This document shows positions 17,303-50,667 of a stretch of DNA of 64,000 nt, piece by piece. This DNA comes from Thermodesulfobacterium hveragerdense DSM 12571. GTDB lineage: Bacteria > Desulfobacterota > Thermodesulfobacteria > Thermodesulfobacteriales > Thermodesulfobacteriaceae. The notes beneath the pieces are model-generated. The model had not been told where the DNA came from and searched no databases. It saw nothing but the letters and a program-made list of their open reading frames with translations. Numbering within the stretch: position 1 is the stretch's first letter; each line of letters begins with the position of its first letter. The translations under genes and the position numbers were made by a program. The DNA lies in assembly GCF_000423845.1 (NCBI RefSeq), contig NZ_AUIT01000009.1, positions 1 through 64,000 of the forward strand, read 5' to 3'.

Positions 17303-18913
17303 CTAAAAACTAGGTAAACCTCTCTCTTTTTTAGGTATATGGCAACTATCACAACTCATAGCCTTTTCTATCTTTAAATACTCATGGCATTTAATACACT
17401 GTCCATGATAAGCTGCCTGTAGTCTTGGCCTTTCAGGGTGTAAAGCATCAAAACTTATTCCATGGCAAGAACTGCATTTAACCTCTTGTCCTTTTATTTT
17501 CCCTTCAGGGTTCGTTTTATGATGACATCCTTTACACAGGGTTTCTTCCTTATCATGGAAGTATACCGCAAGTCTATTGCCTGAGGTCTTAGCAACCAAA
17601 CTTTTCACTATCTTTTGATGAGGCATGGTTGCCTTTTCAAACTCCTTGGATAAAACCTCTATTTCTATTTGAGATTTTATCTCTCCTGAATAGGGTTTTA
17701 AATTTTTAATATCAGACCTCGCTCTACCTATATGGCATTTAACACAAGTAGTTTCAGAAGCAACTTCTGTGCGAGAGGTTTCTTTTTTGTCAAGATGATG
17801 ACAAGCTAAACATTCTTTTCTTGCCTTTATCTCCTTTTGATGACATCCCTGGCAGCTTCTGTCTGAAAATACTGAATGAAAAGCTGTGACAGCATTTACA
17901 AAATTCCCTTTAGGACTACCTTCTAAGGTATGACAATTCCGACACCCTTCAAGTCTTTCATGATGACAATCTCTACATTTCTGGGCTGTAAACTGGTGAA
18001 TTCGGTGATTAAACACTACTGCTTTCATCTTAGAAGCTTTAGGGAATTCCATCCAATAAATCTCTTTTTGTCCTCTCTCTGGCCTTGGAGCTTTAGACAG
18101 ATCTTCCAAACTCCTTTTTTCTCCTTTATGGCAATCACTGCAGATTATCGGACCACCCTTTTTCCCATCCTTTTTTAATTCTACATGACAGTTCAAACAT
18201 AACCCATGAAAGGCCTGAGAAAGGTTTAAACTTTTTTCTTGAGCTATCTTCAATATCTTGGTTAACTCAGGACCTTTCTTCTTAGTAAAATCATGGCAAT
18301 AGTAGCAAGATTCTTCTTTACCTTTGATATATTTTAGAGCCTTCCCTTTATCACGTTCTTCTAAATCATAGGTATGATGGCACTTCTCACATTTTTGGTC
18401 TAACTCTTTGACATGGGTTTCATGGTAAACAAAATCAAAATCAAACTTAGGATAGTTTATATCTTTGTACGCATAAATATTTACATGGCAATCCCCACAA
18501 GAAAGTCTTACCGGACCATAAGGTTTTTGCTCAAGCTTTTTCTGTTGATGGCATTTAATGCAAGCTTGATGGTAAAGGTCTTTTAACTTTTCTGGATCTT
18601 TAACAGATAAAAACTCCTTAGGAAAAACAAAACGTAGATTCTTGTTATTATCTACCGGGTGACAAATCCCACAACCTTCTTTTTCTAACGCCTTAACATG
18701 TTTTAGGTGGTTAAACAAAACAGGGGCATACTCTAACCTCCCAAAAACCTCAGGATGTTTAATAAGAAGAAGATTTTTCTGGACCTCTGTAGGAGTTAAA
18801 GTTTTTTCCACTTTTCTAAAGGGTTCAGTTAAAGCCAAGGGATTACTCAAACAGCACCAGAATAAAACCGTCAAACCTAACCCTAAAATCAACAAGACTG
18901 TTTCTTTCTTCAT
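17303..18913 (-). CDS. hmcA: HmcA: sixteen-haem periplasmic cytochrome c
   Basis: A 536-residue exported protein. A hydrophobic signal segment (residues 5-27) is followed by exactly sixteen CxxCH haem-c motifs: CGICH, CIKCH, CGDCH, CEKCH, CYYCH, CLNCH, CSDCH, CRDCH, CRNCH, CQGCH, CLACH, CVKCH, CKGCH, CSSCH, CIKCH and CDSCH. Sixteen haems and this length fit the high-molecular-weight cytochrome HmcA of sulfate reducers, in which the haems are arranged as cytochrome c3-like units. Known HmcA takes electrons from periplasmic hydrogenase or formate dehydrogenase via c3. It lies 1 base after hmcF. The cysteine pair near residue 20 could be a lipidation site but no clear lipobox is seen. Confidence 0.93.
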   Translation of the reverse strand: MKKETVLLILGLGLTVLFWCCLSNPLALTEPFRKVEKTLTPTEVQKNLLLIKHPEVFGRLEYAPVLFNHLKHVKALEKEGCGICHPVDNNKNLRFVFPKEFLSVKDPEKLKDLYHQACIKCHQQKKLEQKPYGPVRLSCGDCHVNIYAYKDINYPKFDFDFVYHETHVKELDQKCEKCHHTYDLEERDKGKALKYIKGKEESCYYCHDFTKKKGPELTKILKIAQEKSLNLSQAFHGLCLNCHVELKKDGKKGGPIICSDCHKGEKRSLEDLSKAPRPERGQKEIYWMEFPKASKMKAVVFNHRIHQFTAQKCRDCHHERLEGCRNCHTLEGSPKGNFVNAVTAFHSVFSDRSCQGCHQKEIKARKECLACHHLDKKETSRTEVASETTCVKCHIGRARSDIKNLKPYSGEIKSQIEIEVLSKEFEKATMPHQKIVKSLVAKTSGNRLAVYFHDKEETLCKGCHHKTNPEGKIKGQEVKCSSCHGISFDALHPERPRLQAAYHGQCIKCHEYLKIEKAMSCDSCHIPKKERGLPSF

Positions 18914-18914
18914 C

Positions 18915-20255
18915 CTAAGGTCTTAACCTCTCAGGGATTTCCATATGTTCTGCTATCAGGTCTGCCAAAAATTTAACATGGGCCTCTACTTTATAGTGCT
19001 CAATCAAATCTTCTATCCCCTTATGACAGGTATGACAAGGTGCTATCACTAAAGATGCCCCTGTTTCTTTTATCTGTTCTATCTTGACTTTTCCTCCTTC
19101 TATCCTTGCCCCCTTCCAGGGAGGCCCTGCATCAACCATCCCTCCTCCTGAACTACAACAATAATTGTATTCTTGATTAGGGGTCATTTCCACAAAATCT
19201 TCACAAAGTTCCCTAACTATAAATCTGAGTTTTTGTCCTAACCCTCTGTATCTCACTATGTTGCAAGGATCTTGTAAGGTAGCCTTTTCTTTAACCTTAT
19301 GAGCGATCTTTATCTTTCCCTGGGTTAAAATCTCATAGAAAAACTCTACCGCATGGATAAAAGGTATAGGGGCCTCTTTCCAGCCTAAAAGTCTTGCTGA
19401 TTCATAAAGCGCTGCTCTATAGGCATGTCCGCACTCTGTAATCAAAATCCTTTTAACCCTTAGTTTAGAGGCTATTTCATAATGCCTTTTGGTTACCAAC
19501 GTCATCGTCTCAAAATCATGCATATAAAGCGACTTATTGGTATAATCCCAACCGTCTGTGTCAGGTAAAGTAAAATCAACCCCTGAGACAAGCATAATCT
19601 TAAGCATGTTAGAAAGCAAAGGGGTCATGTATTTAGCTTCAAGACCATGAATAAGTAACAAAATGTCTGCATCTTTTTTCCCAAGAGGGATCCTTGCATT
19701 TTTTATCTCATACCTTAGCTCGTTCTCTATCCATTGTATCGTGTCTATCCACTCATCCTGTTTAAACCAGAGCATGTTGTAAGAAGACATATGACTGTAG
19801 ACCTGGTCCTGAATAAACTGAGGAGCTACCCCTAAAACCCCACAAAGTCTTCTCACCAAAGAGATCAAATAGGCAATATCAATACCGAAGGGACAAAACT
19901 GAGTACACCGGCGACAAAGATTACATTCGGTAAAAGCAATCCTTGCATATCGCTTTAAATCGGCTTTTTCTATTTTGCCTTTTTTAGCAACCAAGTCTCC
20001 TAAGGTGAGCTTTACTTTTGAGGCCGGCGCATAACTTGGGTCTCTGTCATGAGAAAGATAATGATGACAAGACGCAGAACACATACCACAGCGCATACAA
20101 GTTTCTAAAAAGATCTTAAATCTTACCGTAACCTCTTCGTTTAAAACCCTCTCGATAGCCCTTTTAATCTTTTGTTGGTCTAATCGTTCTATCGTTTTGT
20201 CTATCCCTATATCAGAAACCGGTTTTCTTACAAACCCTTCCATGTTTTTCCTCAA
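18915..20255 (-). CDS. hmcF: HmcF: HdrD-like FeS protein with CCG domains
   Basis: A 446-residue cytoplasmic protein. Two ferredoxin-type motifs, CMRCGMCSASCHHY (from residue 53) and CNLCRRCTQFCPFGID, are followed by two cysteine-rich CCG-type domains, seen as ITECGHAYRAALYE with DPCNIVRYRG, and YNYCCSSGGGMVDAGPPW with APCHTC. This is the HdrD/GlpC/TmcB/HmcF architecture. It faces the cytoplasm and is thought to hand electrons to a cytoplasmic acceptor, possibly in sulfate reduction. It overlaps hmcE by 4 bases. Confidence 0.9.
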   Translation of the reverse strand: MRKNMEGFVRKPVSDIGIDKTIERLDQQKIKRAIERVLNEEVTVRFKIFLETCMRCGMCSASCHHYLSHDRDPSYAPASKVKLTLGDLVAKKGKIEKADLKRYARIAFTECNLCRRCTQFCPFGIDIAYLISLVRRLCGVLGVAPQFIQDQVYSHMSSYNMLWFKQDEWIDTIQWIENELRYEIKNARIPLGKKDADILLLIHGLEAKYMTPLLSNMLKIMLVSGVDFTLPDTDGWDYTNKSLYMHDFETMTLVTKRHYEIASKLRVKRILITECGHAYRAALYESARLLGWKEAPIPFIHAVEFFYEILTQGKIKIAHKVKEKATLQDPCNIVRYRGLGQKLRFIVRELCEDFVEMTPNQEYNYCCSSGGGMVDAGPPWKGARIEGGKVKIEQIKETGASLVIAPCHTCHKGIEDLIEHYKVEAHVKFLADLIAEHMEIPERLRP

Positions 20256-20917
20256 TAGTCCTTTGACCGCCTAACCGCACCAAACTCTGAGGCAGTATAG
20301 GCTCTAATCAACCAAAAATAAAAGATATGCGAAAACTTGGTAAAGGGAATAAAAATTAACATCACCTCTCCCAACAAAATATGTAAACCTGCTATAACCT
20401 GATAGGGTAAAAACATCTGATATCTTGCTAAAAACCCGGTTAAAAAAACTAAGATCACCAAAGCTAAAAGAGCATAATCTACTGGGGTGCTTAGATACTT
20501 AACATCCTTAACCAAAAAACGTCTCAAAAGTAAAACAACTCCACAGATAATGGTTAAGACTGTTAAAAAATCAGAAACAATATTAGGTAAAGCCCACCAG
20601 CTTATCCCCCAGGATTCCTTCCACATTTCGATATGACCTAAAAAAAAGAGAGGGGTTAACAAAAGCCCTACATGAAAGACATAGCTTATCACAGTAAAAA
20701 GAGGCCTTTGTCTCATGCTGTAGCTACCAAAAGGTAAAAGCCAAAATAGATAAGACCTAAGCGTATGTTTAAGACTAAAATATCCATAGAGTACTTTATC
20801 TTTTTGAGCTCTTTTAAAAAAGTTATAGAGGTTATAAACTAAACCTAAAAAAAAGACCAAAAAAGACACCCAAGCCAAAGGGCCTCTTACTATCTCAAAA
20901 AACGTCATAAGTTTCAC
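20252..20917 (-). CDS. hmcE: HmcE/TmcC: NarI-like membrane cytochrome b
   Basis: A 221-residue membrane protein with about five spans, of the nitrate reductase gamma (NarI) family. Histidines suitable for haem b lie in VISYVFHVGLLLTPLFFLGH and AGLHILLGEVMLIFIPFTKF with HIFYFWL. Length fits HmcE/TmcC. It overlaps the tryptophan-rich gene upstream and hmcF downstream by 4 bases each, so expression is coupled. The likely role is to carry electrons across the membrane to HmcF. Confidence 0.87.
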   Translation of the reverse strand: MKLMTFFEIVRGPLAWVSFLVFFLGLVYNLYNFFKRAQKDKVLYGYFSLKHTLRSYLFWLLPFGSYSMRQRPLFTVISYVFHVGLLLTPLFFLGHIEMWKESWGISWWALPNIVSDFLTVLTIICGVVLLLRRFLVKDVKYLSTPVDYALLALVILVFLTGFLARYQMFLPYQVIAGLHILLGEVMLIFIPFTKFSHIFYFWLIRAYTASEFGAVRRSKDY

Positions 20918-22116
20918 ACCTTAATTTCTTTCGTAAAATAGCTCTTCTCTTTTATACCTTTTATCAACAGGATATCCTCTTCTAAAAACACTGGATCCCA
21001 TAAATAGGTATAAGGGCCTTCTAAAACCTTATTTTCTACCAGGAGATAATATCCTCCATCTTTTTCGGCTTTAGCTGCTATTTTACTACCCTTAGGACTA
21101 AATACAGAGTCTCCTATCCTTTCCCAAATAAGGTCCCAACAAACCTCGTCTACCACCAATCCCCATCGGTTTTGATGTCTTACTACCACGGCTATCCTTT
21201 CTCCATCGGGACTAAAATGGGGCTCTAACACCATCTGTCCAAAGGTTGGCTTCCAAGTTTTCCCATCTACTGCTAAGGTCCACTTTCCAAGCTCTAAGGC
21301 CACAACCGCTGCCACCATCTTCTTTTCAGGAAAAACCTTAAGATTCCATAACTGGGTAAAAGACCTTTCCCAAAAAGGACTACCATCACAGTATAACTCC
21401 CATCCTCGAGAAGTTTTTACAGGAGCAACCACCTGATTCTCATCTAAAAACCTTGGTTCCCAAACCTGGTAAAAACTTTTTTCCCAACACACATTATCTA
21501 CCACTATGGTAAAGCTTCTGTCAGTAAGTCTTACAGCTGTAGCTACCCTTGTCTCCTTAGGGCTAAAGCAACAACCAAAAAGGGCTAAAAACTTTTTATC
21601 CCAAAAAACGTCGTTTACCGCAAGCGACCACATTCCTTTGGCAAAGTTAAAAATCTCTAACACCGGATAATTTTCTAACCTCACATAAGTAGCTACTTTA
21701 GCCCCTGTAGGAGACACAAAAAGATCTCTGGTATCATAAAAACTATGACTCCAGGGAATCCCATCCACACAAACCGTGTAGTTTCCGTCGATTTTAACGT
21801 TAGCTAAGACCTTCTGCCCTGAGTTATCTGTTTTTAGGTTCCATAGATATTCAAAAAACTCTTCCCATAAAACACCTTCTTTCCAAACTGTCCACAACCC
21901 GTCTTTTTGAACAGAAGCTATCAAATCTCCGTTAGGTGTAAACTGAAGTAAATTTACCCTTTCAAAAGGCTCATCTATGGTCTTACCATTAACCCAAATA
22001 AACCTTTGTCCTTCTTCATCCTCAACAACCGTGGCTATTTTATCTCCTAAAGAGTTAACCACCAATTCTGAAAAATTTGCATATTTTTCTAATACTCGAA
22101 GGTCTACCCAGGACAT
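20914..22116 (-). CDS. Tryptophan-rich beta-repeat protein, TmcD-like
   Basis: A 400-residue protein with about 20 tryptophans. It is built from recurring units of about 45-50 residues in which a phrase such as VDGKTWKPTF, VDNVCWEKSF or VDEVCWDLIW is followed by W-x-P/N and a hydrophilic turn; other repeats read FSPDGERIAVVVRHQNRW and FSPKGSKIAAKAEKDG. This suggests a beta-propeller of WD40-like blades. TmcD, the tryptophan-rich subunit of the Tmc complex of sulfate reducers, is the best match by composition and context. No signal peptide is seen. No ribosome site precedes the ATG; the promoter lies so close that the message would be almost leaderless. It overlaps hmcE by 4 bases. Confidence 0.7.
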   Translation of the reverse strand: MSWVDLRVLEKYANFSELVVNSLGDKIATVVEDEEGQRFIWVNGKTIDEPFERVNLLQFTPNGDLIASVQKDGLWTVWKEGVLWEEFFEYLWNLKTDNSGQKVLANVKIDGNYTVCVDGIPWSHSFYDTRDLFVSPTGAKVATYVRLENYPVLEIFNFAKGMWSLAVNDVFWDKKFLALFGCCFSPKETRVATAVRLTDRSFTIVVDNVCWEKSFYQVWEPRFLDENQVVAPVKTSRGWELYCDGSPFWERSFTQLWNLKVFPEKKMVAAVVALELGKWTLAVDGKTWKPTFGQMVLEPHFSPDGERIAVVVRHQNRWGLVVDEVCWDLIWERIGDSVFSPKGSKIAAKAEKDGGYYLLVENKVLEGPYTYLWDPVFLEEDILLIKGIKEKSYFTKEIKV

Positions 22117-22214: not shown

Positions 22215-22682
22215 TTATGTCCTATGATAAGGGATTTTCTTTAATATGGTAAAACTTCGGTAAAGGGCTTCCATCAACACCAAAATAGCTATTTCGTGGT
22301 TAAGGGTTAGAGGAGAAAGGCTAAGAAGAAAATGGGCTTTATGTTTTAACTCAGGAGATATTCCCTCAGGACCTCCTACTAAAAAACATAAATCTTTTGA
22401 GGCCTCAAGCCATTTTTCGATTTTAGAGGCAAGTTCTATGGTATTAAGAGTTTGTCCTCTCTCATCCAAAACCACCAAAATTTCGTCTTCAGAAAGATGC
22501 TTTTTTAAAACTTTTTCTTCTATCCTCAGTCTTTCTTCCTTTTTTTCTATCCTACCTTTAACCTTAGGTAGACATACCTCTACAGGACATAGCGGGGCAA
22601 TTTTTTTGGCATAGTAAGAAATTCCTTCTTCTATAAAACTAAACTTTAAAGGCCCAGGGGCTAAAACCTTTATTTTTCTAAT
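22215..22682 (-). CDS. rlmH: RlmH: 23S rRNA (pseudouridine1915-N3)-methyltransferase, probable ATT start
   Basis: The frame encodes the whole SPOUT-family methyltransferase RlmH: residues 2-5 RKIK, then VLAPGPLKFSFIEEGISYYA, LVVLDERGQTLNT in the middle, FLVGGPEGISPE (SAM-binding knot) and the C-terminal LMEALYRSFTILKKIPYHR. No ATG, GTG or TTG precedes the conserved N-terminus in frame. An ATT at 22682-22680, 6 bases after AGGAGG, gives a product of 155 residues, exactly the usual family length. The nearest standard start codon (GTG at 22478) would delete the first 68 residues. The gene overlaps the end of lptD by 13 bases. Family assignment is firm; the ATT start is an inference. Confidence 0.88.
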   Translation of the reverse strand: MRKIKVLAPGPLKFSFIEEGISYYAKKIAPLCPVEVCLPKVKGRIEKKEERLRIEEKVLKKHLSEDEILVVLDERGQTLNTIELASKIEKWLEASKDLCFLVGGPEGISPELKHKAHFLLSLSPLTLNHEIAILVLMEALYRSFTILKKIPYHRT

Positions 22683-24844
22683 CCATAACCTCCTAAACCT
22701 TTTAATTCTACCCTAAAGAAAAATTTTGTGTCCTTAGGGGTGACTGAAACACCTCCTCCTAATAGATAGCAATCATGTACATAAGAAAGACCCAACCTCA
22801 TCTCGGTATTTTCTTCAAGCCTTAAATTTCTACTCAGATAAAAGTCTGTTTGCAACCTTTGAAAAAATCGGTGAGAAAGGGAAAGGGTAAGTTGTCTTGT
22901 ATTCCAGGCTTTATCATCCTGGAAAGTCAGGCCTACACGGTCAACCATCCAATCAGTTAACCCAAGGTCAAAGGAGTGTTTTTTAAAACCTAATCCATAA
23001 AAGTTATAACTTCCATCGTATCTTAAAGAAAGGTGTGGGGTGTAATTTAACAGCACCTGAAGGCCTAAGTCTGAAAACTTTCTCTTCTCACTTGAGGTAG
23101 CGGTAGGAGTTTCTTCTACGTTAAACTGATACTGTTGATAAACTTTTACCCTTAAAAAGTCTGGCTGGTTTTTAAGTCGAAAAAGTTGCCATAACCCATA
23201 TTCTAAGGTATTTATCTCTTCATCAGAAAGGTCTTCATAGGTAAAAACAGGTATGTTTGTCTCCGAAGGTTTTTTCTTAAAATAATAGGTTACATATGGC
23301 TTTAAGACGTGTAAAAAGGTTAAGTTGCGGTTTAAAGGTAAAGGTACTTCATAAAACTTAAAAATCTGAGTATAGGTGGTAAAAGAAACATCGTAGTAAT
23401 GGTTGTTTAAACTGTTTTTTGAAAAACCTGTAGAATCGTCAAGGATAAAATGGTTTAGGAAATAACTTGCCTTAAACTCGTTCAACAAAAAAGAGGTTTT
23501 AAAAGGATAAGCTATCTCTAAGTTTGAGCTTAGTTTGTGCCCATAGTACCCCTCTTTTCTAAAACTATAGTTATGTACCAAGCTAAAGTTTGTCATAAGG
23601 TTTCCTATGGTCTTAAAAGGCAACAAATTTAGACGAAAACCCCAAAGAGGTTGTAAAACCGTGTCTTTATCAGAAGCTCCATGATAGTCAAGATAGGAAC
23701 TTTCTATCCTTGAATAAAGACTACCACGATAATATTGAGCCCAAAAACGAGATGTTCTATATTCTTGATTTTTTTCTTCTAAAGTGCGATGAAACCTTTC
23801 TAAAAAAAAAGTCTTTGAAGAGGAAAAGCCATTTTCTCCTATGTCAAACTCTTCCAAAAAGTCTTTATTGGAGACCACATCTATGTCCAGATGGAAATCA
23901 AGATTTGGTTTAGGTGTGTAATCGATTTTCCCTACAAACCACCATTTATGTTTTTTCTCTTCCTCTTTTTCTGTATCGCCAAGTAAAGTTTTTTTATTAT
24001 CCTTTAGATATCTCAATTTAAAAACCCCTTCTAAAGGTTCTATCAATCTGAACTGGCTTTCTAAATCTAACAATAAACCTCTTTTGGTAAGAAACATCGG
24101 CGATAAGGTAAAATCAACCTGGTCGGTATATGGCCAGAAAAAAGGTAGTTGAAGTCCTAACCCTAATCTATTCCCCTGAATTATTTTAGGAAATAAAAAA
24201 CCTGTACTTCTTTGAGGAACCATCGGGAGGGTTACCTTGGGAACATAGGCTGTTTTAGGCACAGAAACCACAGTTTGTTTTTTAATCTTAAACTTGGTAG
24301 CCTCTCCTTTACTTATCCCTTCTGGGGTCAAAACAAACTCTCGAACTTCTAAGCTCCAGGGAGGAAAGTCTTTTTCATTTTCACAATCAAACTCACAGGA
24401 ACTAACCAAAGCACTTTTAGCCAGGTATTCGTTTAAGGCGTTTTTATGTAAATCCTTAGCCTTAATCCTGATCCCTTCCTTTTTCAAAAACATAAAGATG
24501 TTTTTTCCCCAAAACTCTTCGTTTCTCAAATCTAAAAAGGCCTGATCTCCTTCAAAGGTTGCATTTTTGGTAAAATCAAAAATTTTATACTGATAAAGGA
24601 TTAAGTAGCGGGTAGAAACTTCGTATTTAGCCTTTTGAGCCCAGATGAGCATACTGTTAGTCTGAATTACCACATCCCCTTCAGCTACCAAAATTTTAAA
24701 ATCATTAAAGGCTTCCACCTTTTGAGCAGTAACCTCCAAAGGTTTAGAAACAGAACCAAAAGCTTGAACAGGGACAAAAAAGAAGCAGGCCGAAATTATC
24801 CATAAAAATACCTTTGAAAAAAACAACTTAACCCAAAATCCCAT
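22670..24844 (-). CDS. lptD: LptD: outer-membrane lipopolysaccharide assembly protein
   Basis: A 724-residue exported protein. A signal peptide (about residues 1-30, ending near VQAFGS) leads into an OstA/LptA-like beta-jellyroll domain (EVTAQKVEAFNDFKILVAEG, DVVIQTNSMLIWAQKAKYEV), then a long beta-barrel region with alternating aromatic segments to the C-terminus. A cysteine pair (CEFDCEN, residues about 148-152) may take part in disulfides. Together this is the LptD family, which inserts LPS into the outer membrane and so indicates a Gram-negative envelope. It lies between the ferritin-like gene and rlmH. Confidence 0.87.
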   Translation of the reverse strand: MGFWVKLFFSKVFLWIISACFFFVPVQAFGSVSKPLEVTAQKVEAFNDFKILVAEGDVVIQTNSMLIWAQKAKYEVSTRYLILYQYKIFDFTKNATFEGDQAFLDLRNEEFWGKNIFMFLKKEGIRIKAKDLHKNALNEYLAKSALVSSCEFDCENEKDFPPWSLEVREFVLTPEGISKGEATKFKIKKQTVVSVPKTAYVPKVTLPMVPQRSTGFLFPKIIQGNRLGLGLQLPFFWPYTDQVDFTLSPMFLTKRGLLLDLESQFRLIEPLEGVFKLRYLKDNKKTLLGDTEKEEEKKHKWWFVGKIDYTPKPNLDFHLDIDVVSNKDFLEEFDIGENGFSSSKTFFLERFHRTLEEKNQEYRTSRFWAQYYRGSLYSRIESSYLDYHGASDKDTVLQPLWGFRLNLLPFKTIGNLMTNFSLVHNYSFRKEGYYGHKLSSNLEIAYPFKTSFLLNEFKASYFLNHFILDDSTGFSKNSLNNHYYDVSFTTYTQIFKFYEVPLPLNRNLTFLHVLKPYVTYYFKKKPSETNIPVFTYEDLSDEEINTLEYGLWQLFRLKNQPDFLRVKVYQQYQFNVEETPTATSSEKRKFSDLGLQVLLNYTPHLSLRYDGSYNFYGLGFKKHSFDLGLTDWMVDRVGLTFQDDKAWNTRQLTLSLSHRFFQRLQTDFYLSRNLRLEENTEMRLGLSYVHDCYLLGGGVSVTPKDTKFFFRVELKGLGGYGLEK

Positions 24845-25479: not shown

Positions 25480-28400
25480 ATGGGTGGAATAAGTAGGCGA
25501 AACTTTTTAAAATTGTCGTTAGGTTCTCTGGTTTTAAGTTCTATTTCAATAGACCTTACCCCTGTTAAGTCTTATGCAGCTACAGAACTCAAAATCAAAA
25601 ACGCTAAAGAAAGTACCTCTATTTGTCCCTATTGTTCTGTAGGATGCAGTATAATTGTTTATACAAAAGGAGGCAAGGTAGTACAGGTAGAAGGTGATCC
25701 AGATAGCCCTATCAATCAGGGTTCCCTATGCCCTAAAGGAGCTTCTTTATTGCAAATGGCCAACAATCCTTACAGGGTTACAGAACCTCTTTATCGTGCT
25801 CCAGGAGCTACCGAATGGAAAAAGGTTTCTTGGGAATGGGCTCTTTCTGAGATAGCTAAAAGGGTTAAGGCTACAAGAGATAAATATTTTATTCTTAAAG
25901 ATGAAAAAGGGCGAGTGGTAAACAGAGTTGAAGCTATTGCTCATGTAGGGTCAGCTGCCTTGGATAATGAAGAATGTTATCTCTTACAAAAACTGATGAG
26001 GGCCTTAGGATTAGTTTACATCGAGCATCAGGCGCGAATATGACACAGCGCTACCGTAGCGGCTCTGGCAGAGTCGTACGGACGTGGCGCAATGACCAAC
26101 CACTGGGTTGACCTTAAAAACGCTGATGTAATCATCGTTATGGGTGGTAACCCTGCTGAAAACCATCCTATATCGATGAAATGGATATTGAAGGCCCAAA
26201 AGGAAAAAGGAGCTAAACTTTTAGTCATAGACCCCAAGTTTACCAGAACAGCCTCTAAAGCAGACCTGTATGTTCCTATCCGTCCAGGCACTGACATAGC
26301 TTTCTTAGGTGGTCTTATCAAATATATCATAGATAATGAACTCTACTTCAAAGAGTATGTAATCAACTATACCGACCTTTCTTATTTAGTAGATCCCAAC
26401 TTTAAAGGTCCCGAAGACTTAGATGGATATTTTTCAGGGTATGACCCAAAAACCAGAAAATATGATAAAGCTACCTGGAAATACCAGTTAGACGAAAAAG
26501 GGGTTCCTAAAAAAGACCCAACCCTTAAAGACCCTAATTGTTTATTTCAGCTTTTAAAAAAGCACTATCGTAGATATACCTTAGATATGGTAGCAGAAAT
26601 AACAGGTGCTCCTAAGGAAAAAATTCTTGAAGCTTATAAGATCATCGCCTCAACTGGGAAGCCCAACAAAGTCGCCACTATTTGTTATGCGATGGGATGG
26701 ACCCAGCATACCGTAGGAGTTCAGAACGTAAGAGCGATGTCTATCATTCAACTACTTCTTGGTAACATAGGAATGGCTGGAGGTGGTGTTAATGCCCTAA
26801 GAGGTGAAAGTAACGTCCAAGGCTCAACAGATATGGGGCTTCTTTTCCATGTGTTACCCGGATATTTACCCACTCCAAAGGCTTCTTGGGTTGATTTAAA
26901 AACTTATATAGAGGTAAATACCCCAAAAACCGCAGAACCCAAGAGTCTCAACTGGTGGAAAAACAGACCTAAATACATCGTGAGCTTGCTTAAGGCTTTT
27001 TATGGAGATAATGCAACCAAAGAAAACGATTTTTGTTATGGTTATCTTCCTAAACTTGACGATAATACTACTTATAGCTGGTATGACATCTTTGATGCCA
27101 TGTATAAAGGGAAGATTAAAGGATTTTTTGCCTGGGGACAAAACCCAGCCTGCTCCAGTGCTAACGCTAATAAGGTCAGAAAGGCTTTGTCTAAGCTTGA
27201 TTGGCTGGTTTGTGTAAACCTTTGGGACAATGAAACCTCTTCCTTCTGGAAAGGGCCTGGGATGGATCCTAAGAAGATTAAGACCGAGGTGTTTTTCTTA
27301 CCTTGTGCTTCTTCAGTAGAAAAACAAGGTAGTATCACTAATTCTGGAAGGTTAGCTCAATGGAGGTATAAAGCTGTTGAACCTCCTGGAAAGTGTATGC
27401 CTGATGCCGAGATCATGAATGAGCTTTATCATAAGATTAAAGAACTTTATCAGAAACAAGGAGGGGTTTTCCCTGACCCAATACTCAAACTTAACTGGAA
27501 TTATGGGGACAAACATGTAGACATAGAAAAGGTAGCCAAAGAGATTAACGGTTACTATACCAAAGATGTGGTTTCTCATCCTATAGACAAAAAAACTTAC
27601 AAAAAAGGACAACAGGTTCCATCTTTTGTGTTCTTACTTGATGATGGTTCAACAGCCTGTGGAAACTGGATTTTCTCTGCTTCTTTTACTGAAGCAGGCA
27701 ACATGATGAAAAGAAGAGGGAAAGAAGATCCTACAGGTCTTGGTTTGTATTCTAACTGGGCCTGGTGTTGGCCTCTTAACAGAAGGATTATTTACAACAG
27801 GGCAAGTGTTGATCCTATGGGCAACCCTTGGGATCCACAAAGACCTGTTATTAAATGGGATGCACAGAATAAAAAATGGGTCGGAGATGTTCCTGATGGC
27901 CCACAACCACCTTTAGCGATGGAAGGAGGAGTATTACCTTTTATCATGAAACCCTCTGGTGTAGGAACTATATTTGGAGCTGGTTTAGCTGATGGACCTT
28001 TCCCCACTTACTATGAGCCTGTTGAATCACCTTTTAAGAACCTACTTTATCCGAAAGTCCATTTTAATCCTGTAGCCAGAACTTACGATAGTCCAGATGA
28101 CAAATTTGTAGTAGGTACTGATCCTAAATATCCTTATGTAGGTACCACTTACAGGGTTACTGAACACTGGCAGACCGGTGTTATGACCAGACATACTCCA
28201 TGGTTGTTAGAGCTTGAACCTCAGATTTTTGCAGAGATAGACCCAGAGCTTGCTAAGGAAAAAGGCATAAAGAGCGGGGATAAGGTAATAGTCTCCAGTC
28301 CGAGAGGAGAAATATGGGCAATAGCTATCGTTACAGAAAGAATAAGGCCACTTATCGTTCAGGGGAAGAAGTGTCATATGATAGGCATCCCCTGGCATTA

Positions 28401-28521
28401 TGGATGGAAGTTCCCTAAGAATGGAGGGGATAGTGCTAACCTTATTACACCTAACGTGGTTGACCCAAATACCTTTATACAAGAAACAAAGTGTTTTATC
28501 GTAAACATAAGAAAGGCATAG
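25480..28521 (+). CDS. fdhA: Periplasmic formate dehydrogenase major subunit, selenoprotein (TGA at 26041 = Sec)
   Basis: Read through the in-frame TGA this is a 1013-residue protein, the size of FdnG/FdhA. It starts with a Tat signal (SRRNFLKLSLG) and has a 4Fe-4S motif CPYCSVGCS. Codon 188 is TGA inside HQARI-U-HSATVAALAES, the well-conserved active-site stretch of Sec formate dehydrogenases; the His after it is present. Downstream come YGRGAMTNHWVD, GNPAENHPISMKW and the molybdopterin (or W-pterin) binding core. A SECIS-like hairpin follows the TGA. It reduces CO2 or, more probably, oxidises periplasmic formate with FdhB. The TGA is neither a frameshift nor decay, since the flanking protein is intact. 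Confidence 0.95.
26048..26090 (+). promoter_or_regulatory. SECIS-like hairpin directing selenocysteine insertion
   Basis: The hairpin begins 4 bases after the TGA. An outer GCGC/GCGC pair is followed by an internal loop, CCGTA/TACGG (26054-26058 with 26077-26081), a bulged G at 26059, CGGCTCT/AGAGTCG (26060-26066 with 26070-26076) and a GGC apical loop. The layout (bulged base on the 5' side, short upper stem and G-rich apical loop about 25 bases after UGA) is that of bacterial SECIS elements read by SelB. Confidence 0.75.
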
Positions 28522-29437: not shown

Positions 29438-30190
29438 ATGGATTTAAAGATTTGGATAGAAAAACTTATCACAGAAAAACCACATTTAAAAGAGGTTTTA
29501 AGTTTATATGACAAGGTAGCAGGGTTTAACAAAGAATGTGAAAAAATTCTTAAAACCGAGAATCCTTCAGAAAGCTTGGGTAAACTTTTAGAAATTTTTG
29601 GGAAAACCTTTGAGGTACCCTATGAATTTATTTCTTTTTTAAAAGAGGGATTAGAAGGAAAAGAAGAAGAGATTTTTTTTTATCCTAAAAAATTATGGGA
29701 AATAGCTTTCCCTGAAGAAGAAGTTGCTGAGGAAGAGATAACAAGAATGCTCTTTTTATTAAGTATGCCTCTTTTTAGAAAACTTGCTTTAGAAGTTAGA
29801 AAGGGTAAGCTCAATTCAGAAGATCAGAAAATATGTCTTGTGTGTGGGAAGTTTTTTTCTTTATCGGTTATAGATGAAAACAACAAACGTTATTTTCTTT
29901 GTCCTGTTTGTGGTTATAAAGAAGAAGGACCAAGGATTGGATGCAGTTATTGTGGTCATACCAACTGTGAAAAGATAGACCTCTTGGTAGATGAAGATGA
30001 AATAAGGGTTGAACTTTGTAAGGACTGCAAAAGTTATGTAAAAAGTTTTAAAGAAACCATGTCCCTATATTTAAAATATCCTGACCCTTATCTTATAGAC
30101 CTAATAAGCCTTCCTTTAGATGTGGTTGCCCAAGAACGTGGGTTTGTTAGAAGGTCTCCTAACGTTTTAGGGATAAGGGAGATTAAGTAA
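29438..30190 (+). CDS. fdhE: FdhE: formate dehydrogenase maturation protein
   Basis: A 250-residue protein whose C-terminal half carries four CxxC pairs (CLVC, CPVC, CSYC, CKDC) that form the rubredoxin-like iron sites of FdhE. SYCGHTNCEKIDLLVDED and the C-terminal DVVAQERGF are also family features. FdhE is needed for activity of Tat-exported formate dehydrogenases. I chose the ATG at 29438 because AAGGAG lies 6 bases before it; an upstream GTG at 29399 would add 13 lysine-rich residues without a ribosome site. The stop overlaps the next start by one base. Confidence 0.88.
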   Translation: MDLKIWIEKLITEKPHLKEVLSLYDKVAGFNKECEKILKTENPSESLGKLLEIFGKTFEVPYEFISFLKEGLEGKEEEIFFYPKKLWEIAFPEEEVAEEEITRMLFLLSMPLFRKLALEVRKGKLNSEDQKICLVCGKFFSLSVIDENNKRYFLCPVCGYKEEGPRIGCSYCGHTNCEKIDLLVDEDEIRVELCKDCKSYVKSFKETMSLYLKYPDPYLIDLISLPLDVVAQERGFVRRSPNVLGIREIK

Positions 30191-32121
30191 TGGGAAAAAA
30201 GGTTTTTCATGAAATCTTAAGTCTTGAGGAAGCATTACACATTTTGGTGCAAAACTTTAAACAAAAGGTATTTCATCCTCTTCCTGTAGAAAAGATAAAG
30301 GTTAAAGAAGCCTTAGGAAGGGTCACAGCAGAGCCTGTATTTGCTAAACGTTCGTCTCCTTATTTCCATTCAGCTGCGATGGATGGTTATGCTGTTCATT
30401 CTAAAGATACCTTTAACGCTACAGAAAAAGACCCTGTGCTTTTAAAAATAGGAGAGCAAGCCCTCTGGATAGAGACAGGTGACCCTTTACCTGAGGGGTT
30501 TGATGCAGTTATTCCGGTAGAAGAGGTTAATGTTAAAGAAGGTTTTATCGAGATATACAAATCTTATCCCCCTTACCATGACGTCCGTCCTGTGGGAGAA
30601 GACATCGTGGCTACTGAGATGATCATTCCAGAAAATCATTTTATAAGACCCTTTGAAATCGGGGCTATGTTGGCAAGTGGTATCTTAGAGGTTGTAGTAA
30701 GAAAAAAACCCAAGGTAGGCATTATTCCTACAGGTTCTGAATTGTTAACTCCTGAAGAGGCTGAAAAAGAAGGTCTTAACCCACCCAGCTTGATAGAATA
30801 TAACTCTTCTGTTTTGAAAGGACTTTTAGAAAAAGACGGAGCTGAGGTTAAAGTTTATCCTATAGCTAAAGATGATGAGTTTTCTATAAAATCTTCTATA
30901 GAAAAAGCTTTGATAGAAAATGATATGGTACTCTTAAATGCTGGTTCAGGCTATGGTAAGGAAGACTTTACCTATAAGGTGTTAAGTGAGTTAGGAGAGG
31001 TTATAATTAACGGGGTAGCTATCAAACCAGGGAAGCCCTTTATCGCAAGTTTTTGTAAAAATAAACCTGTTTTAGGAATACCTGGTTATCCAGTTTCAGC
31101 CATCTTTTGTTATCAACTTTTTGTAAGACCTCTTATTGAGCTTTACTTAGGGGCTAAACTACCCAAGGAAGAAAAGATCAAAGGCCTTCTTTCTCGTCAA
31201 CTTTCTTCTCCTGTAGGAGTAGATGAATTTGTAAGGGTAAAGGTGGGAAAGGTAGGAGAAAAGTACATAGTTTCTCCTTTGGGGAGAGGAGCTGGATTAC
31301 TTATGTCAGTGGTTAGGGCAGACGGTTATCTATGGATCCCAGCAGGTATTGAGGGATTTTCTCCTGGGAAAGAGGTAGAGGTGTTTCTCTGGAGAAACAA
31401 AGAAGAGATAGATTACACCTTAGTGTGTATAGGAAGCCATGACAATACCCTTGATGTGGTCTACAACTTCTTACGTAGGAAATATCCTCATATTTCTCTT
31501 TCTTCAGCTCATGTAGGATCTATGGGAGGTCTTATAGCTATCAAGAAAGGAGAAGCCCATCTTGCAGGCACACACCTTTTAGATGAAACAACCGGAGAAT
31601 ATAACATACCTTTTATTAAAAGAATCTTGCCTGAACGTTCGGTAGTATTGGTAAATCTAGTTTACAGGATACAAGGGTTTATCGTAAAAAAAGGTAATCC
31701 TAAAAACATCTTTAGTTTTTCTGACCTTACTCGAGAAGATGTGGTGTTTATCAACAGACAAGCTGGTTCAGGAACAAGGCTTCTTCTTGACAAACATTTG
31801 AAGGATTTAGGAATAAATCCTTCTCAGATAAGAGGTTATGACCAAGAAGAATATACTCATATGGGAGTAGCTCAGGCGGTTGCGAGTGGAAGGGCTGATG
31901 TAGGGCTTGGGATTTATGCGGCGGCTAAGGCTTTAGATTTAGATTTTATACCTTTAGCAGAAGAACGTTATGATATCCTTATTCCCAAGGAATTTTTAGA
32001 CTTAGAGATGGTTCAGGCCTTTTTAGACATAATCAGAAATGACGAAGAGTTTAAAAAGATGGTGGTAAACTTAGGAGGATACGACGTAAGGCATATGGGA
32101 AAAATCATTTACGAAAACTAA
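30190..32121 (+). CDS. MoeA fused to a periplasmic-binding-protein-like domain
   Basis: A 643-residue two-domain protein. Residues 1 to about 405 are MoeA, the molybdopterin molybdenumtransferase: SPYFHSAAMDGYAVHS, TGDPLPEGFDAVIPVEEV, NAGSGYGKEDFT, GVAIKPGKPF and GIPGYPVSAIF. Residues from about 415 on form a PBP-like domain (CIGSHDNTLDVVYNFL, SAHVGSMGGLIAIKKGEAHL, FINRQAGSGTRLLLD) like those in ModE/LysR-related proteins that sense molybdate or tungstate or a cofactor intermediate. This fusion is known in anaerobes and archaea. Placement with fdhE suggests it completes the pterin cofactor of the formate dehydrogenase. Confidence 0.88.
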   Translation: MGKKVFHEILSLEEALHILVQNFKQKVFHPLPVEKIKVKEALGRVTAEPVFAKRSSPYFHSAAMDGYAVHSKDTFNATEKDPVLLKIGEQALWIETGDPLPEGFDAVIPVEEVNVKEGFIEIYKSYPPYHDVRPVGEDIVATEMIIPENHFIRPFEIGAMLASGILEVVVRKKPKVGIIPTGSELLTPEEAEKEGLNPPSLIEYNSSVLKGLLEKDGAEVKVYPIAKDDEFSIKSSIEKALIENDMVLLNAGSGYGKEDFTYKVLSELGEVIINGVAIKPGKPFIASFCKNKPVLGIPGYPVSAIFCYQLFVRPLIELYLGAKLPKEEKIKGLLSRQLSSPVGVDEFVRVKVGKVGEKYIVSPLGRGAGLLMSVVRADGYLWIPAGIEGFSPGKEVEVFLWRNKEEIDYTLVCIGSHDNTLDVVYNFLRRKYPHISLSSAHVGSMGGLIAIKKGEAHLAGTHLLDETTGEYNIPFIKRILPERSVVLVNLVYRIQGFIVKKGNPKNIFSFSDLTREDVVFINRQAGSGTRLLLDKHLKDLGINPSQIRGYDQEEYTHMGVAQAVASGRADVGLGIYAAAKALDLDFIPLAEERYDILIPKEFLDLEMVQAFLDIIRNDEEFKKMVVNLGGYDVRHMGKIIYEN

Positions 32122-46725: not shown

Positions 46726-46954
46726 GACCTCGCGTTCGATCAAAAAAATTATCCCTGAAATTAAGAATAGTTAGATCAAAATTCTGTCCCTAAAGTTAAA
46801 ATTCCCTTCCTAATAACCAATTTTTAAAGGATAGAGAGGGAAAAAATGGGTAGTATTTCATTAATTATAATCTAAATTTTAAAGAAAGACTTAAGGAAAG
46901 TTAGGGTATAAAAATAGCTTGACCTTTTTTAGAGGTTCTTCTAAAATTTTTTAT
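46726..46954. other. Divergent intergenic region between pilus and bd-like operons
   Basis: About 230 AT-rich bases upstream of the pilin promoter, before the plus-strand bd-like operon. A TATAAA (46907-46912) lies upstream of the plus-strand gene but has no matching -35 hexamer. No ORF, RNA gene or repeat of note was found. Confidence 0.4.
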
Positions 46955-47998
46955 ATGGAAAACTTGGTTTTTTATCCTGAAAAACTTCCTTTTTATTCTT
47001 CATTCTTAATTTTCTTAGAGCATACCTTCTTTCTCCTCCATATCTTGCTTATCAATCTTATTTTAGGATGGTCGATGTTTTTTGCATACCAACAGTTAAA
47101 AGAAGACTTCCTTCCGGAAACTGCTCGTCTTTTTCTTAAGAAAAAACCGATTCTGTTTGCTTTAGCTATCAACATGGCCATCCCTGCCCTTCTTTTCCTT
47201 CAGGTAGTCTATGGACCTCTATTTTTTACAAGTTCTATCATACTTGCTACCTATTGGATGCTTATCATCCCTTCTGTTATCTTGGTCTACTATCTTTCTT
47301 ACCTCATCTCTAAGAAAAGTTCTTCTCAAAAGCCTTTCAAACCTTTTATTTTTATTCAAGCTTTTATCCTTCTTTATATAGTCTTTATCTTAATAAGCAA
47401 CCTTACACTTCTGGAAAACCCCGAAAAGTGGCACGTCTATTTTGCTAATAGAAAAGGCACCTATCTGCCCTTAGATATACCTTATCTATATTTTAAATAT
47501 CTACATTTTTTGGTAGGGTCTTTGGCTGTAAGCGGTTTGAGCTTAGGGATTTTGGGACATTATAAAAACGATAAAATGTGCCTTATAAAAGGGCTAAACC
47601 TATTTTTTTACTTAACCCTGTTGCAAATAGGAGTAGGAATAGCCTTTCTATTATCTCTACCTTCAGAGATAAGAGGCTTATTTTTAGGCAATGACCCAAA
47701 AGTTGCTTTCTTTTTTTACTTAAGCATTGTTTGTGTTATCGGTTCTCTATATTTTAGCAAAAAGCATCACTTAAAACTAACTACATCGTTTTTTATACTT
47801 ACCCTTATTTTTATGGTAGTAAACAGGTTTAACTTGAGAGCCCTTCAGTTGTCTTCTTATTATCAAACAGAACTGTTGCAAGTTTCTCCTCAAATGGATG
47901 TTTTCTTGGTGTTTTTACTGTTTTTGGGGTTAGGGATTGTTACGGTGTATTACTTTTTAAAAAATAGTTTCTCTAAGCAGGGAGAAAGAAAAGTATGA
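46955..47998 (+). CDS. CydA-related membrane subunit of a cytochrome bd-superfamily complex
   Basis: A 347-residue membrane protein with about nine spans and little resemblance to CydB. The N-terminus FLEHTFFLLHILLINLILGW looks like the first helices of CydA, and FKYLHFLVGSLAVSGLSLGI resembles the CydA helix bearing the haem b558 His. Both His residues could bind haem. The start at ATG 46955 is chosen over an upstream TTG at 46919; neither has a clear ribosome site. The stop overlaps the start of the fused multihaem gene by 4 bases, so the products are probably partners. The name is tentative; it may be a second CydA-like subunit. Confidence 0.6.
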   Translation: MENLVFYPEKLPFYSSFLIFLEHTFFLLHILLINLILGWSMFFAYQQLKEDFLPETARLFLKKKPILFALAINMAIPALLFLQVVYGPLFFTSSIILATYWMLIIPSVILVYYLSYLISKKSSSQKPFKPFIFIQAFILLYIVFILISNLTLLENPEKWHVYFANRKGTYLPLDIPYLYFKYLHFLVGSLAVSGLSLGILGHYKNDKMCLIKGLNLFFYLTLLQIGVGIAFLLSLPSEIRGLFLGNDPKVAFFFYLSIVCVIGSLYFSKKHHLKLTTSFFILTLIFMVVNRFNLRALQLSSYYQTELLQVSPQMDVFLVFLLFLGLGIVTVYYFLKNSFSKQGERKV

Positions 47999-50667
47999 AC
48001 TATCCTGTTTGGGAAACTTATTTTATAAATCCTGGGCTTTGGGTAGCAATTATTGCGGTTTTTCATGTTTTTATTTCTCACTTTGCCGTAGGAGGAGGAA
48101 TCTTTCTCTGGTATACAGACAGACTTTCTGTGTTGACCAACGATCAAGACTTACGAGAATTTGTGCGTAAACATACCTGGTTTTTCCTTTTGATCACGAT
48201 GGTTTTGGGCGGGGTTTCTGGAGTAGGTATTTGGTTTATCATAGGGATTGCAAGCCCTGAGGCTACCTCAATCCTTATAAATCAGTTTGTTTTCTTCTGG
48301 GCTATAGAATGGGTGTTTTTCTTTGTGGAAATAGTAGCTCTTTTGATATACCACTACAAGTTCGATGAATTGTCTGACAAACTGCGTCTTAGGGTAGCGC
48401 TGCTATACGCCATCTCTGCCTGGATGAGCTTATTTGTCATAAACGGTATTATTTGTTTTATGTTAACTCCTGGAAAATGGTTAGAAACCAGAAATCCTTG
48501 GCACGGTTTTTTTAATCCTTCAAGCTTTCCAAGTCTATTTTTTAGAACAGGTATCAGCCTTATGTTGGCTGGTATCTTTGGAATTTTTAGTACTCTATTT
48601 TTCTCTCCCAAGGAGAAAAGACCTTTTCTTTTAAAATATAACGTAAAATGGCTTTATGTAGCCTTTCCTTTTATATTCTTTTCAAGTATTTGGTACTTTC
48701 TAACCGTCCCAGAACTATCTAAATTGTTTAACTTTTTGTTTAACAGACAGGTTCTGATGGCTAAAAAAGTTCTTTATGTTTCCTCTGCGTTGATTTATCT
48801 AATTTCTCTTGCTTTTTTAGTAAAAGTCAATCCTGGGTTACAAAGGTTATTAGCCTTTCTCCTTCTTTTTATAGGGTTGCTATGGTTAGGTAGTTTTGAA
48901 CATATAAGGGAGTATGCACGAAGACCTTATGTAATATATGGTTATCTTTATTCTTTTGGGATAAGGGTTGAGGAGGAAAAGAAACTTAACAGCGAAGGTT
49001 TTTTAAAACATGCAAGATGGGCTATGGTTAAAGAAGTTACAGAAGACAATAAAATTTTGGCGGGGAGAGAAATTTTCAACCTACAATGTCTATCCTGCCA
49101 CACCATAAAAGGGCTAAGAAACGATGTGGTTGAAAAAGCCCGGGGTTTTACCTACTTTGGAATGGTTTCCCAGTTATATGGACAAGGAAAAGTTCTTGGT
49201 TATATGCCTAAATTTATAGGTACAGAAAAAGAGAGAGAAGCTCTTGCTGCATTTATTGTTAAAGAACTTTTAAGAAAACCTGAAAATCCCCCTGAACTTA
49301 AACCTGTTATCAGAGAACTTAAAACTCAACCTTTTACCTTTGACCCACAAAAAGACCAGTATGTTATCTTTGTTTTTAGTCCTCTGGGTATGAAATGTGT
49401 TACCGATGCAGACAGATGGTTTAGTTTCTTATATCCTGGAAGCACTTTTGAAGCTTTGGTTATTAAGAGAGGGCCTAAACCTGAAATGCTTGACAACACA
49501 AAAGTTCAATTAGTTTACAAAGTTGAACCTGGTTTTGAAACACCCTCTAAACATGTCCTTTTCTGGGATTATGCTACAGAATTTTTTAACCAAACCATTC
49601 CTAAGGATTTAGGGTTAACTGGCAAAGGGCTTAACGGCACTTTTGATTGGGATGAAAAAAGAAAAATTTTTATAGCTAAGGGGATCCCTGTTTTACCTTA
49701 TAAAAACGACGGAACATACAACCCTTATCCTGTTTTTGAGATAGAAGCTGTAGATAAAGTTTCAGGCAAAGTTTTACAGCGCACCAAAGCCGTTTCTCCT
49801 GTAGCGACTGAGTTCCGTTGCTATGTGTGTCATGAAGGAGGCCCAAGATGGAATGGTGTAGCCGGTATCTCTGATCAAACAGCCATTAACATACTTAAAG
49901 CCCATGATAAAAACCATCAAACCAACTTCTATAAATCTGCTCTTCAAGGGAAACCTGTTTTCTGTCAAAAATGTCATGCCGATTTTATCGTAGGGAGTGA
50001 GGGAATAAAGGGTCATAATAGTTTTTCAGCAGCCATGCATGGATGGCATGCAAACTATATGCCCTATAAAGATGAAAAAGCCTGTTATTTATGTCATCCT
50101 GATCATCCCAAAGGAAATACCAAATGTTACAGAGATATTCATAAAAAATTAGGGTTAGAGTGTGTTGATTGTCATGGAAATATAGATCTTCATGCCACAT
50201 CTCTTCTCAAGAAAACGAACACAAAAACCTCCAAATTTTTGCTTGCACATCTCAACCCCCCAATACCTAAAGACCAGATAACACCAAGAAAGCCCTGGGT
50301 TCAGCAACCTGACTGTCTTAACTGCCATAAAGGCTTTCAAAAACCAGCTCAAGAGGCTAAGGGTTATAATAACTGGACTGAAGATGTCTCAGGCCTTTTC
50401 CGAGTAAGAAAGGATAACACACAAAAACTACCTTGTCTTGTCTGTCATGGCTCTCCCCATGCATTATATCCAGCTTTTAACCCCTATGGTATGGGTAGAG
50501 ATAACCTGCAACCTTTACAGTACCAGAAAAACATCTTACCTATAGGTGCAAACTTAAAATGTGAAGTATGTCATGTAAAAAAGATGAAGATACCTTTTCA
50601 TCATCCCAACCTTATAAGAACCTTTAGAAATACCAACCTTTTACCTTCTAAAAAAGCCTTAGAATAA
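47995..50667 (+). CDS. Cytochrome bd-superfamily subunit fused to an eight-haem cytochrome c domain
   Basis: An 890-residue protein. Residues 1 to about 325 are CydA-like: AVFHVFISHFAVGGGIFLWY (His24/29), AIEWVFFFVEIVALLIYHY (Glu105, Glu112) and FEHIREYARRPYVIYG, which resembles the GWxxxExGRQPW motif of CydA. At the place of the CydA b558 His there is FFRTGISLMLAG without His. Residues from about 350 carry a class I cytochrome c (CLSCH at 365, Met in GYMPKF), then seven further CxxCH sites (CYVCH, CQKCH, CYLCH, CVDCH, CLNCH, CLVCH, CEVCH) to the C-terminus. It looks like an oxidase fed by cytochrome c or carrying its own wire, not a plain quinol oxidase. Confidence 0.75.
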   Translation: MNYPVWETYFINPGLWVAIIAVFHVFISHFAVGGGIFLWYTDRLSVLTNDQDLREFVRKHTWFFLLITMVLGGVSGVGIWFIIGIASPEATSILINQFVFFWAIEWVFFFVEIVALLIYHYKFDELSDKLRLRVALLYAISAWMSLFVINGIICFMLTPGKWLETRNPWHGFFNPSSFPSLFFRTGISLMLAGIFGIFSTLFFSPKEKRPFLLKYNVKWLYVAFPFIFFSSIWYFLTVPELSKLFNFLFNRQVLMAKKVLYVSSALIYLISLAFLVKVNPGLQRLLAFLLLFIGLLWLGSFEHIREYARRPYVIYGYLYSFGIRVEEEKKLNSEGFLKHARWAMVKEVTEDNKILAGREIFNLQCLSCHTIKGLRNDVVEKARGFTYFGMVSQLYGQGKVLGYMPKFIGTEKEREALAAFIVKELLRKPENPPELKPVIRELKTQPFTFDPQKDQYVIFVFSPLGMKCVTDADRWFSFLYPGSTFEALVIKRGPKPEMLDNTKVQLVYKVEPGFETPSKHVLFWDYATEFFNQTIPKDLGLTGKGLNGTFDWDEKRKIFIAKGIPVLPYKNDGTYNPYPVFEIEAVDKVSGKVLQRTKAVSPVATEFRCYVCHEGGPRWNGVAGISDQTAINILKAHDKNHQTNFYKSALQGKPVFCQKCHADFIVGSEGIKGHNSFSAAMHGWHANYMPYKDEKACYLCHPDHPKGNTKCYRDIHKKLGLECVDCHGNIDLHATSLLKKTNTKTSKFLLAHLNPPIPKDQITPRKPWVQQPDCLNCHKGFQKPAQEAKGYNNWTEDVSGLFRVRKDNTQKLPCLVCHGSPHALYPAFNPYGMGRDNLQPLQYQKNILPIGANLKCEVCHVKKMKIPFHHPNLIRTFRNTNLLPSKKALE

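Follow-up and report, generated by a model that had tools for sequence, protein, structure and literature searches.

We analysed a window of 64,000 nucleotides from Thermodesulfobacterium hveragerdense DSM 12571 (contig NZ_AUIT01000009.1, positions 1 to 64,000), which carries two overlapping genes, one for a CydA-like protein fused to eight haem c sites and one for a smaller membrane partner. Judging from the sequence, the pair is probably a heterodimeric, copper-free oxygen reductase of the cytochrome bd superfamily, which would be fed by periplasmic c-type cytochromes and not by quinol. The quinol site and haem b558 have been lost from the large subunit and the residues for haems b595 and d are kept, so that periplasmic c haems would be the simplest source of electrons. 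An earlier, sequence-only reading of this DNA had proposed a cytochrome-fed or wired terminal oxidase, or another reductase, with bd-superfamily anatomy; the anatomy is borne out by conservation and by profile comparisons, and the oxidase function stands as the best inference only.

The gene pair and its CydA-like core

Both genes lie on the forward strand, at the positions that the sequence-only reading had given them, and they overlap by 4 bp:

46955..47998, + strand: partner subunit, a CydA'-like paralogue of 347 residues with about eight transmembrane (TM) helices and no CxxCH motif (a TTG at 46919 is a possible alternative to the ATG start at 46955)
47995..50667, + strand: large subunit of 890 residues, made up of a CydA-like core, a class I cytochrome c and a heptahaem module

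The pair stands isolated, flanked by a potassium transporter gene and by a reverse-strand cluster of pilin/type II secretion-like genes (both named by eye). The closest named match to the 435 residues queried comes from T. thermophilum DSM 1276, with 96% identity. Relatives were drawn from plasmid records as well as from 60 nearby and 297 phylum genomes, and conservation was scored over 51 core relatives, 21 partners and 10 octahaem proteins. Of 65 related loci, 63 have the partner and core genes side by side in one orientation, with some places counted twice among these loci.

The following features of the core carry the assignment, positions being matched to those of E. coli CydA:

47995..49014, + strand: CydA-like membrane core, residues 1-340, with eight predicted TM helices
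48064..48081, + strand: H24 (equivalent to CydA His19 by profile alignment) and an extra H29 in TM1, both present in 51/51 relatives
48307..48330, + strand: E105 (51/51) and E112 (50/51) in TM3
48544..48546, + strand: R184, where CydA has the b558 ligand His186, with Arg in 51/51
48898..48927, + strand: motif E302-x-x-R305-E306-x-x-R309-x-P311, with E306 aligned to CydA Glu445

Homology to CydA supports the membership of this core in the cytochrome bd superfamily. The Pfam model Cyt_bd_oxida_I (PF01654) matches residues 17-203 of the large subunit with 36 bits (cut-off 26.2), and profile-profile alignment with hhalign against 12 canonical CydA sequences gave E values of 1e-8 to 1e-11. Controls with CydB, a K+ transporter and reversed profiles gave E values of 0.03-0.6, and membrane composition is therefore no explanation of the match. 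The branching order of the core, the partner and canonical CydA was not settled by a deep tree that included all three.

In E. coli CydA, haem b558 is bound by His186 and Met393, haem b595 by Glu445 and haem d by His19 (PMC8585947). The alignment of the 51 relatives shows that the residues for both active-site haems (the positions of His19, Glu99/Glu107 and Glu445) are kept in the core, which upholds the earlier claim of CydA helices with His and Glu ligands. E105 and E112 are probable counterparts of Glu99 and Glu107, a grade given because they are spaced by 7 residues, not 8. What had been described as an ExxRE-type loop is more exactly a C-terminal motif ExxRExxRxPY, in which E302, R305, E306 and R309 are conserved in all 51 relatives and the last Glu, E306, matches E. 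coli Glu445 in AEYGRQPW. Both b558 ligands are absent from the core across these relatives: the His186 position, rightly said before to lack His, is Arg throughout, and the Met393 position is L260 and is not conserved. The extra H29 stands where CydA has Pro. Furthermore, the Q-loop is absent, the gap between TM6 and TM7 being about 10-20 residues long, compared with about 80 in the CydA of the same genome.

The partner subunit and the haem c chain

When searched alone, the partner matched no informative family. Profile-profile alignment joined it to the core with E values of 7e-11 to 5e-13 and to CydA with 5e-7 to 1e-7; the comparison with CydB gave only 0.011. These comparisons make the second subunit a distant paralogue of CydA and not CydB. 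The sequence-only reading had likewise held that it is not CydB-like and that it carries the His motif of the b558 type, and a histidine of that type is found at H184:

47039..47041, + strand: partner H29, aligned with CydA His19 (the haem d ligand in E. coli), in 21/21 partners
47504..47506, + strand: partner H184, aligned with CydA His186 (b558 ligand), in 19/21
47825..47839, + strand: partner RxxxR (R291, R295), the counterpart of core R305/R309, in 21/21

No TM3 glutamate pair is conserved in the alignment of the 21 partners. A variant partner with two C-terminal CxxCH motifs is encoded at three loci (L070, 1747-4684; L071, 1860-4774; L072, 1919-4853), where a gene for a dihaem protein lies ahead of the core gene; the end of the L070 partner consists of cytochrome c domains.

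Beyond the membrane core, the large subunit bears eight CxxCH sites, arranged as the class I cytochrome c and seven further sites that had been read from the sequence before:

49027..49269, + strand: class I cytochrome c domain, with C365LSCH and axial M404
49303..49809, + strand: linker domain free of CxxCH, residues 437-605, with its homologue in the N-terminal part of a heptahaem cytochrome that is secreted as a separate protein
49819..50574, + strand: heptahaem region, with CxxCH at residues 609, 657, 697, 723, 774, 814 and 856

The CxxCH at residue 365 and M404 are both present in 51/51 relatives. A cbb3-type cytochrome c Pfam match at residues 354-421 falls below its cut-off, and Pfam cytochrome c7/c3 families match the C-terminus above theirs. 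The seven CxxCH sites of the heptahaem region are invariant in all ten octahaem proteins, and so are eight His outside these motifs (residues 637, 682, 685, 716, 733, 822, 869 and 870, the last two just past the heptahaem region). These eight are candidate distal ligands, and the seven haems are probably bis-His coordinated, each presumably paired with one of these His. Since eight invariant His cover the seven distal ligands needed, a pure electron-transfer chain would be simpler than a second catalytic site.

The region past residue 436 forms a separate module, as seen from its match to a secreted heptahaem protein of 423 residues (32% identity over 407 residues, E 6.5e-62). In this free-standing homologue (L075, 3497-4768), from another genome of the same bacterial family, the start resembles a signal peptide and an NDLGMHC stretch stands ahead of the haems. 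Two more free-standing homologues of the module occur in that family (L073, 3115-3819; L074, 2901-3896).

Distribution and relation to known bd-type enzymes

The core is found in three main forms, with one haem, three haems (L066-L068) or eight haems, and its one-haem form is widespread. The one-haem core has about 440-460 residues and its partner gene lies downstream; the octahaem core has 854-909 residues where its start is clear, and the partner gene, where found, lies upstream. Among the 297 genomes of the phylum, 13 were found to have the octahaem form; they come from seven Desulfobacterota families and include four Thermodesulfobacterium genomes. A further ten members of the genus gave no such match. 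This distribution would be explained equally by lateral acquisition and by differential loss. One clade, with support of 100/99, unites the octahaem and trihaem proteins and a single one-haem protein of the partner-first order; the one-haem clade otherwise carried by the window's own family is distinct from it.

Aerobes, too, carry one-haem relatives (Thermus, Agrobacterium and Methylosinus plasmids). The two alphaproteobacterial copies are followed downstream by RegB/RegA-type redox kinase and regulator genes (best NCBIfam matches, below curated cut-offs). On the Methylosinus plasmid pMSC49c (L026, 9983-20399), a one-haem CydA-c/partner pair is followed by RegB/RegA-like genes and then by a methanobactin cluster for copper acquisition, the neighbourhood expected for a copper-independent oxidase, which suggests that this pair may serve as such an oxidase under copper limitation. 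At the trihaem locus L066 (3510-7938), the gene after those for CydA-c and the partner encodes an octahaem cytochrome, secreted and assigned to PF11783 (Cytochrome_cB). We considered whether the latter was a split form of the octahaem protein and rejected this, as it is a member of PF11783 and matches the C-terminal module weakly.

Proteins of this kind had already been noticed. In their passages on the subject, Degli Esposti et al. (2015, PMC5322542) reported cydA chimaeras fused to multiple c-type cytochromes in more than 50 delta-proteobacteria and discarded them as improper bd oxidases. These chimaeras resemble the octahaem protein in joining a CydA-like part to several c-haems with no adjacent cydB, and they very probably belong to the same group; the passages concerned describe no partner subunit, ligand analysis or clade. 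The sequence-only reading took the function of this architecture to be untested; the architecture is uncharacterised, but it is not unknown. Our literature searches turned up no functional studies of the fused CydA/multihaem c form. To this the present analysis adds a CydA paralogue, adjacent to the core in a conserved way, as the identity of the partner; it also adds a count of the ligands across relatives and the description of an octahaem clade.

In the division of the superfamily by Murali et al. (2021), qOR stands for the quinol families and OR-C and OR-N for the non-quinol ones; according to PMC10839748, PMC12342949 and PMC12324825, the non-quinol families have lost the quinol site, cytochrome c is their presumed donor, and the second subunit of OR-N is a CydA paralogue. 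An OR-N-like protein of Nitrospina has about 14 TM helices, three of them replacing the Q-loop, and the section describing it does not mention a fused haem c (PMC3578206). With eight TM helices and eight CxxCH sites, the octahaem protein does not correspond to the OR-N CydAA' of Nitrospira and Nitrospina. Its likely home is presumably OR-C, which we take to be the haem-c-bearing family; the fused haem c and the missing quinol site would fit this. The one-haem pair (Thermodesulfobacteriota, Thermus, Agrobacterium, Methylosinus) shares with it the same ligands, the same partner and a core of 25-35% identity, but has a single haem c, places the CydA gene first and forms a separate clade. Canonical CydAB (E. 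coli bd-I/bd-II) shares the homologous core and the haem b595/d residues; unlike it, the octahaem pair is without the b558 ligands, the Q-loop and CydB, and has eight haem c sites.

Proposed function, alternatives and meaning

In the route that we propose, the seven low-spin haems would take up electrons from a tetrahaem c3/hydrogenase pool and hand them to the Met/His-coordinated haem c1, from which they would reach the b595/d-like pair of the large subunit, where oxygen would be reduced to water with consumption of cytoplasmic protons and generation of some proton-motive force. The partner would stand in for CydB and may hold one b-type haem (at H184 and/or H29). We infer the direction of electron flow, the donor, oxygen as the substrate, the haem types and the partner haem from sequence. 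In a strict anaerobe that is heat-loving and reduces sulfate, such an enzyme could serve in oxygen removal or in low-level microaerobic respiration and energy gain, and the two oxidases of Desulfovibrio vulgaris offer a precedent for a role in oxygen defence or microaerobic energy supply (PMC4383621). A fuller picture, in which the octahaem wire carries electrons from the periplasmic cytochrome pool or the cell exterior to oxygen without quinone, and in which two homologous subunits share the three haem sites of CydA between them, the low-spin haem b having moved into the CydA paralogue, is offered tentatively and we regard it as rather doubtful.

Several observations weigh against an oxygen reductase fed by cytochromes. 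The E105-E112 spacing is one residue short of that in CydA, and close to the haem sites H29 and R184 are changes peculiar to this family. AlphaFold models of core residues 1-440 and of the partner, built from two near-identical sequences each, reached a predicted local distance difference test score (pLDDT) of 42-43, too low for the models to be usable. Only 4 of 14 genus members carry the pair, so it is not essential. A scan upstream of the operon found no FNR/CRP-like palindromes nearby, and promoter matches there were no more than chance expectation.

The changes at H29 and R184, both invariant, give a site unlike that of CydA, and bd enzymes bind nitric oxide and handle peroxide; the b595/d-like pair could hence reduce another small ligand such as nitric oxide or peroxide, with the same cytochrome input and with oxygen as a secondary substrate. 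The PF11783 octahaem cytochrome adjoining one trihaem relative would suit this. We nevertheless consider it unlikely, as the residues for CydA oxygen chemistry (E99, E107 and E445 positions) are kept, the alphaproteobacterial relatives adjoin redox-control genes, and no consistent N-oxide genes were seen among the neighbours inspected in the window and in relatives, mostly by eye and not all searched. It is little more probable that the protein is a quinone/cytochrome c oxidoreductase without a gas substrate, in which core or partner would exchange electrons with menaquinone and the octahaem chain would link this exchange, in either direction, to partners in the periplasm or outside the cell. 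Multihaem modules frequently act as such conduits, some haem modules resemble MtrC/MtrF-type domains in Pfam, and a b558-type His is retained in the partner; however, the Q-loop and the Met393 counterpart are both absent, the conserved H24/E306 pair indicates high-spin haem sites, and there were no obvious extracellular-transfer genes near the one-haem relatives inspected. That the heptahaem module is the catalytic end, for instance a sulfur- or nitrogen-oxyanion reductase for which the core is a mere anchor, seems very improbable. Weak, below-cut-off matches to NrfH/DmsE-type multihaem models and the free-standing secreted homologue speak for it; against it, the invariant distal His suffice for all seven haems, the haem residues of the core are invariant, and the one-haem form is still conserved with the same partner in the absence of the module.

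The host genome gives the preferred reading, a cytochrome-fed oxygen reductase, its setting. It encodes c3-type and Hmc-type multihaem cytochromes and a canonical CydAB; no haem-copper oxidase was found in it, CydAB being the only other haem oxidase found. From this inventory comes the proposed route from c3 and hydrogenase to oxygen. An Hmc-like electron-transfer cluster on the reverse strand of the window (17303-22116) could plausibly supply the proposed octahaem oxidase with electrons. It encodes a class III multihaem cytochrome, in which PF02085 matches several stretches, together with a CCG/4Fe-4S protein, a membrane cytochrome b resembling NarI (PF02665) and a 400-residue protein with no Pfam match. 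Elsewhere in the window lie an open frame of 724 residues with no Pfam matches at 1e-5 (22670-24844, - strand), and a molybdopterin oxidoreductase gene (26092-28521, + strand), with a MoeA-PBP fusion gene (30190-32121, + strand) some way downstream of it.

A group of proteins that had been set aside thus becomes a defined, testable heterodimer, found in anaerobes that can be cultured. An active complex would be a bd-type oxidase fed by cytochrome c, which is a class that phylogeny predicts and of which we found no purified example, and it would provide a model for how sulfate reducers may link their large periplasmic multihaem pool to oxygen defence without copper or quinol.

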